Below, in pieces: positions 1-58,798 of a stretch of 64,000 bases of DNA (positions within the stretch are counted from its first letter, which is position 1; the number at the start of each line of letters is the position of its first letter). The stretch covers positions 76,645 through 140,644 of the forward strand of contig NZ_AUMJ01000009.1 in assembly GCF_000430625.1 (NCBI RefSeq), read 5' to 3'. Both the position numbers and the translations under genes were made by a program. Under the pieces are notes generated by a model. That model saw nothing but the letters and a program-made list of their open reading frames with translations, ran no database searches and was not told where the DNA came from. The DNA comes from Aneurinibacillus terranovensis DSM 18919 (GTDB taxonomy: Bacteria; Bacillota; Bacilli; Aneurinibacillales; Aneurinibacillaceae).

Positions 1-59
1 AACTCGCGGGCGTTGCCGCTCGTCCTTTTTCTGCAGGGTAGCGAAACGGCCGCTTAGTG

Positions 60-257
60 ACCGGAAGGTCGGACCGACAAAACATCCGGGTATCTCAAGG
101 ATGGAGACAATTGTCGGTCTGATCGACCTTCCGGCCACACGCTCCACATCGAAAAAGAAACGTTCGGCACACCCCCGCGAGATTTTCTCAGGTGACCAAT
201 GGAAGAAAGCATATGTTGCTTTAACACTGTAAAGCAACATATACTTTCCTTAACGAC
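60..257 (+). repeat. Structured intergenic repeat, copy A
   Basis: This copy has two parts. Bases 61-134 form a long imperfect hairpin: an outer 11-bp arm (61-71 with 124-134) and an inner 7-bp arm (73-79 with 112-118), enclosing a 32-base loop that is also found near 8930. Bases 131-257 are about 85-90 percent identical by eye to 58670-58798 and carry an inverted repeat (205-248) with loop AACACTGT. No credible protein is encoded. It lies downstream of pepA. It could be a dispersed palindromic element or a structured RNA. The copy number in the genome is unknown. Confidence 0.6.
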
Positions 258-7662: not shown

Positions 7663-7710
7663 ACAGGTGCATCATCCCGTTAAGCGATACGCCTGAATAA
7701 GCCCTCCATA

Positions 7711-7782
7711 AAGAAAACTTGGCTGGCATCAAGCCGCAGGATCAGATGGTAGTATTAGTTGCCTTTATGTGCGTAATAAAGG
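7711..7782 (+). repeat. AAGAAAACTTGGCT hairpin motif, copy 2
   Basis: AAGAAAACTTGGCT repeats the motif at 2202. It is followed by the stems CTTG/CAAG and CCTTTAT/ATAAAGG (7762-7782). No promoter or reading frame is evident nearby. Confidence 0.4.
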
Positions 7783-7800
7783 TTTACTTTCTTATACGCG

Positions 7801-8810: not shown

Positions 8811-9048
8811 TAGGGTGCATGCGAATGGAATGTTCGCGGGATGCATCGAAATCCGTTACATTTTTGCCGATTTTCCCTTACGATGAAGCATAGATGTCCG
8901 TACTCCTCTTCCGTTTGGGGATCGGCCGAAACATGCAGGTAACTCGAAGATGGAGATAGTCGGCTAAAAGCGTACCCAAACACCAAAGAAACCGGGCAAG
9001 CAGTAAACAAAAATTGAAACAAAAACGACCAAAGTTGGTCGTTTTTTT
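8811..9048 (+). ncRNA. Candidate structured RNA with conserved loop and terminator
   Basis: Three structures line up on the plus strand. First, TGCAT-GCGAA/TTCGC-ATGCA (8816-8845). Second, GCCGA/TCGGC (8925-8929 with 8960-8964) enclosing a 30-base loop that matches the loop at 80-111 at 23 of 29 positions. Third, ACGACCAA/TTGGTCGT plus T7 (9025-9048), an intrinsic terminator. Frames on either strand look like random translation. I found no convincing promoter. It could instead be a decayed dispersed element. The rest of the gap (8678-8810 and 9049-9332) is AT-rich with nothing else recognised. Confidence 0.4.
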
Positions 9049-20727: not shown

Positions 20728-20832
20728 GTGTAGTATTGTTATAATTAAATAAGTTTAAAGAAAACTTACCCGGGCCAAACCTAAAAGTATCCGGCAGTAC
20801 CCGGCATATCTCAAGCGTCATGAGAAAACTGC
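20728..20832 (+). promoter_or_regulatory. Promoter and structured leader of the methyltransferase gene
   Basis: TTGTAT and TATAAT, 16 bases apart, give a start near 20758. The leader begins with the inverted repeat AAGTTT/AAACTT. It then contains GCAGT/ACTGC (20794-20798 with 20828-20832) enclosing a 29-base loop with TATCTCAAG and ATGAGA, similar to the loops at 80-111 and 8930-8959. No terminator follows, so any control would be on translation or stability. This is speculative; the 20572-20720 part of the gap holds nothing else I recognise. Confidence 0.4.
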
Positions 20833-58634: not shown

Positions 58635-58798
58635 GTTGATTGTGGCAAACATCTACAAATATCTAGCCGCGGCCACACGCTCCACATCGAAAAAGCAACG
58701 TTCGGCACACTCCCGCGAGTTTTTCTCAGGTGACCCATGGAGGAAAGTATATGTTGCTTTAACACTGTAAAGCAACATATACTTTCTTTAACGGCAAG
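58635..58798 (+). repeat. Structured intergenic repeat, copy C
   Basis: Bases 58670-58798 repeat 131-257. They include a perfect 18-bp inverted repeat (GAAAGTATATGTTGCTTT and its complement, 58743-58760 and 58769-58786) with the same loop, AACACTGT. The upstream 35 bases look like a partly deleted version of the copy A loop (AAACATC...TATCT). It lies between the convergent ytvI and fxsA genes. Confidence 0.6.

Follow-up and report, generated by a model that had tools for sequence, protein, structure and literature searches.

Two 30-nt loops that are closely alike in sequence and sit in different stems, both within a 64,000-nucleotide stretch of the Aneurinibacillus terranovensis DSM 18919 genome (the window, taken at its full length), raise the question of whether they belong to a new RNA motif, as a sequence-only reading had proposed, or to some other kind of repeat. 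Their likeness is beyond chance: counted directly, loops 82-111 and 8930-8959 share 22 of 29 positions (one fewer than the 23 first claimed), and a 19-base pattern from the first copy matches twice in the window against 0.01 matches expected by chance. The stems had been assigned the wrong way round, in that ACCGACA/TGTCGGT encloses the loop of the first copy (there given as 80-111) and GCCGA/TCGGC that at 8930-8959. A third loop that had been grouped with them, at 20799-20827, is a chance resemblance, which we rejected as a family member because, with filters off and a threshold of E 10, the covariance model still left it unlisted. The two remaining loops are one corner of a larger dispersed repeat at terminators, unseen in that reading, and the window holds the following parts of it:

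1-255, plus strand: copy 1, a near-complete subfamily A element (positions 8-262 of 262), by alignment to the subfamily A consensus.
71-120, plus strand: core of copy 1, the conserved loop in stem ACCGACAA/TTGTCGGT (covariance model R1, 64.3 bits).
258-315, no strand assigned: A-tract and terminator-type hairpin entered by copy 1, downstream of a minus-strand purine riboswitch (sequence, junction table).
8838-9020, plus strand: approximate extent of the copy with loop 8930-8959, a decayed subfamily B/C-like element whose right terminal repeat is absent (aligned with 24 other copies).
8920-8969, plus strand: core of that copy, the 30-nt conserved loop in stem GCCGA/TCGGC (covariance model R1, 58.5 bits).
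9021-9048, no strand assigned: terminator hairpin with A-tract and T-tract, ACGACCAA/TTGGTCGT, directly adjoining the 8838-9020 copy (sequence).
58670-58793, plus strand: 5'-truncated subfamily A copy, element positions 139-262, with the loop absent (subfamily A alignment).

The start of copy 1 is lost to an assembly gap where the window begins (seen in locus L002); its arms are intact and it folds far better than shuffled sequence (z -6.5). The 8930-8959 copy is old and subfamily C-like: it retains the loop and a 5-bp stem, its outer arms have decayed, and its folding is no better than that of shuffled sequence (z 0.05). The purine riboswitch lies at 381-482 on the minus strand (Rfam, 89.8 bits) and is followed along that strand by the terminator hairpin (~266-315) and then the element; the gene behind it is hidden by the gap at the window start.

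How large the family is was evident from genome-wide searches. The loop pattern has 79 matches in the window's own genome against two for a reversed control, and a covariance model recovers 91 copies there. Building such a model and looking for further copies with compensatory stem changes had been named at the outset as the way to check the proposed motif, and the check was passed strongly: a model built from 23 copies finds 438 in 12 Bacilli genomes, comprising all 11 tested Aneurinibacillaceae and one genome of another family. A broader covariance model adds four host genomes from two further families and finds zero copies in 397 other genomes sampled from the phylum; this scattered distribution suggests horizontal transfer. 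Hosts named by a pattern scan include Aneurinibacillus sp. Ricciae_BoGa-3, A. tyrosinisolvens and A. danicus. Read in context, the copies fall into subfamilies that have little in common beyond the loop. Subfamily A, 262 nt in length, has TGAGAAAAACTCGCGGG...CCCGCGAGTTTTTCTCA as its arms and a tail hairpin whose end is ACTTTCYTTAACG, and exists in dozens of near-identical copies, from which we infer recent spread; subfamilies B and C have different arms and ends. The draft assembly of the window's genome breaks repeatedly at the subfamily A tail hairpin (e.g., contig ends C19:27, C25:29, C31:29 and C58:27) and N gaps occur within many copies, which makes our count probably an underestimate.

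Some copies are arranged in multiples: three stand in tandem at a 353-bp spacing in genome G054 (locus L319, 656100-657600), and three loci of genome G010 (L255, L256 and L257) hold composite elements in which two opposed cores lie between outer ends CAAGGGTGTTGATTATCC and GGATAATCAACAGGTGTG. A different dispersed repeat, shorter than the first (TAAAGAAAACTTGGCTAGCGCCAAGCC...TAGCCTTAGTTGC...TATACTTTCCTATACGC), is also represented in the window, at 7709-7799; it has 28 pattern copies in this genome and none in the control. It is similar to subfamily A at its ends, its stems vary without losing their pairing, and an A-tract and hairpin often come after it; in Ricciae_BoGa-3, variants of it are nested within the stems of certain A-like copies.

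The element folds as one long hairpin with near-perfect arms of up to ~90 bp and a near-fixed 30-nt loop, AACATCYGGGTANYTCNANGANGGAGACAR, at its tip. Among 98 distinct sequences, the stem enclosing the loop has changed on both sides in eight of its nine pairs (295 doubly changed cells), and its covariation reaches 0.489, against 0.140 in shuffled and at most 0.129 in slid versions; the stem sequences differ almost wholly, with their pairing retained. Information content averages 1.46 bits per position in the loop and about 0.65 in the stems (55 diverse members). In 23 of these 55 members another conserved patch, GAAGY-N4/5-ACTGTCCGY, is located 26-30 nt upstream (5') of the loop; a 24th match is far from the loop, and the patch is also present in the distant families. 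An H-type pseudoknot, CATCC/GGATG with TCTC/GAGA, had been suggested as well: its helices are mostly pairable across the 98 sequences (CATC/GATG in 85% of cells, CTC/GAG in 96%), but with zero compensatory change they gain no support from covariation.

Very strong stem covariation, a fixed loop and a second patch at fixed spacing are what a structured RNA, regulatory or protein-binding and multicopy by happenstance, would present. The excess of G-U wobbles over A-C mismatches expected of an RNA is, however, found in neither stem nor arms: the inner stem has 16 G-T against 13 A-C, the whole arms 122 against 125 (53 diverse copies), and a larger clustered set 91 against 136, a bias that, if it pointed to either strand, would point to the opposite one. 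By comparison, 13 tRNAs from the same loci gave 20 G-T and 0 A-C, a small control in which the structure-based finder leans towards paired calls. The missing covariation in the pseudoknot, the near-perfect arms, the tie of the junctions to terminators (see below) and the lack of a matching Rfam family at either gathering or relaxed thresholds also speak against a structured RNA, which we regard as unlikely. The move from compensatory stems to a new RNA falls on the absent wobble excess and on arms that, in single copies, have copied each other.

Such copying is visible in two places. In one copy (L169, which has a short assembly gap inside it) the spacer is inverted between the arms, and in another (L025) the complement of one arm has taken the place of part of the opposite arm; changes of both kinds are hallmarks of template switching in DNA. 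Template switching during DNA replication is reported to be able to create hairpins and to keep their arms paired (PMC8794818, PMC8604942). Because template switching can maintain hairpin arms in this manner, pairing may be kept without RNA function; the near-fixed loop still calls for selection. For those searching for RNA motifs the family thus serves as a caution, in that textbook covariation can arise in repeats whose arms copy each other in DNA, and a cheap check is to compare the numbers of wobble pairs and A-C mismatches, taking tRNAs as the yardstick.

Where the element sits is as distinctive as how it folds. Considering the 42 subfamily A-type 3' ends that no other element follows, 39 run into an A-tract, compared to 6.4% of random sites, and a strict terminator rule is satisfied at 22, compared to 0.5% of random sites; by eye, nearly all 42 run into a hairpin. 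Viewed from the opposite strand, the element begins just past a terminator T-tract. The same placement is seen where a copy is nested in the hairpin of an older one (loci L026 and L048). Several complete B copies end elsewhere than at an A-tract, so the terminator rule is a measurement for one lineage, that with subfamily A-type tails; in the G054 copies that we inspected, a host hairpin on the left precedes the element.

Placement beside terminator hairpins with a T-tract is also the habit of group IIC introns, and the element could in principle be a degenerate or minimal form of these. It lies in the opposite orientation, however, and full-length copies inspected against the true intron at locus L213, where a GTGCG start and 3' domain hairpin are both visible, lack the GTGYG start and domain V, which makes an origin as such an intron highly improbable.

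The near-identical copies and the nesting suggest that the element is mobile. An empty site sought by orthology was not recovered, the intergenic flanks being too diverged, and the nested copies have no clear target duplication. No mobiliser gene was found beside any copy, no gene recurs within the 8-kb loci, and none of the loci that we read contains an autonomous copy. Searches of plasmid and phage collections returned no match to the element, and viral contigs no exact match.

Seven tail-bearing copies in the window's genome begin at element positions 139, 165, 181, 192, 206, 206 and 227 and have an intact 3' end, a pattern of varying 5' truncation that fits target-primed reverse transcription, with the reservation that truncated copies were found through their tails, which biases the count and partly builds in the asymmetry. 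The leading rival to the reading that we favour below is a SINE-like retroposon, in which RNA of the element would be bound by a reverse transcriptase acting in trans (e.g., that of a group II intron) and cDNA primed at the end of the terminator T-tract. Most host genomes contain reverse transcriptases of group II introns, and one such intron sits between a terminator and an element. However, two genomes with 7-8 copies currently have no reverse transcriptase match, the arms show no wobble excess, and no clear target duplications are seen. A partner reverse transcriptase sharing the 3' end of the element was not found: those recovered belong to group II introns, with no core nearby apart from one close to an intron at locus L212, a closeness that their shared target explains. 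We consider a retroposon of this kind rather unlikely.

In Ricciae_BoGa-3 (G001), the group II intron reverse transcriptase genes at L212 and L213 are split at the same point by an insert of ~3 kb that encodes two tyrosine-recombinase proteins of 348 and 637 aa, the larger containing two recombinase-like halves; this genome has about eight copies split in this way. As a candidate autonomous partner they were rejected, since they are group II introns broken up by tyrosine recombinases and the element is near in one case only.

Movement as folded single-stranded DNA by a Y1 transposase, which would make the element a palindrome-associated derivative of the IS200/IS605 type, would be in keeping with hairpins near the element ends, insertion next to hairpins and the finding that 11 of 13 host genomes carry genes for Y1 transposases. 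Against this, G003 and G107 have copies of the element and no Y1 match, no core lies near the Y1 loci examined, visual inspection of the flanks at nine Y1 loci showed no resemblance to the element ends, and the mechanism does not predict 5'-truncated copies; we judge this explanation quite unlikely.

Cumulatively, we favour, with moderate confidence, a non-autonomous mobile hairpin repeat that inserts beside terminators and would be moved in trans. A protein or ribonucleoprotein supplied in trans would recognise the folded single strand (DNA, possibly RNA) through its loop, whose conservation is what points to such recognition, and would insert the element beside a further hairpin bearing a T-tract. 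Template switching in replication would then keep the arms paired, so that selection would need to fix only the unpaired recognition parts. More tentatively, the element might represent a bacterial counterpart of SINEs or a new, structure-to-structure form of transposition, that is, a gene-less hairpin recognised by its loop and pasted beside terminators by a borrowed enzyme. If right, this would be a widespread mobile element of Bacilli, with hundreds of copies placed by structure rather than sequence, and its landing sites would let it affect transcript ends.

A non-autonomous palindromic repeat is a known kind of element, and the family described here, being short, multicopy, without an ORF and bounded by terminal inverted repeats, shares these features with MITEs. 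Neither Rfam nor the open-access papers searched yielded a family that joins drifting arms to a fixed apical loop and terminator-side placement, although an earlier description elsewhere may exist. Bacterial MITEs and stem-loop repeat families are likewise short, gene-less, palindromic, multicopy, dispersed and mostly intergenic (PMC10969869, PMC2267715). Set against these, the element has arms that differ almost wholly between subfamilies around a fixed apical loop, its junctions are at terminator hairpins, and no transposase with matching ends was found. Group IIC introns share its location beside terminator hairpins with a T-tract, whereas the element is without ribozyme domains or an ORF and has the opposite orientation relative to the terminator. 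In IS200/IS605-related palindromic elements and REP sequences, as in the element, hairpins are the likely recognition unit; the element differs in its truncated copies, its long near-perfect arms and its lack of a linked Y1 transposase or matching ends. Eukaryotic SINEs resemble it in being gene-less and abundant, in their intact 3' ends and occasional 5' truncation, and in their placement at A/T-tracts, whereas the element is bacterial, any transcript or reverse transcriptase partner of it would be hypothetical, and it has no clear target duplications. Likened by description rather than by sequence, the bcr repeats of the Bacillus cereus group are, as is the element, dispersed, folding and apparently mobile in Bacilli.
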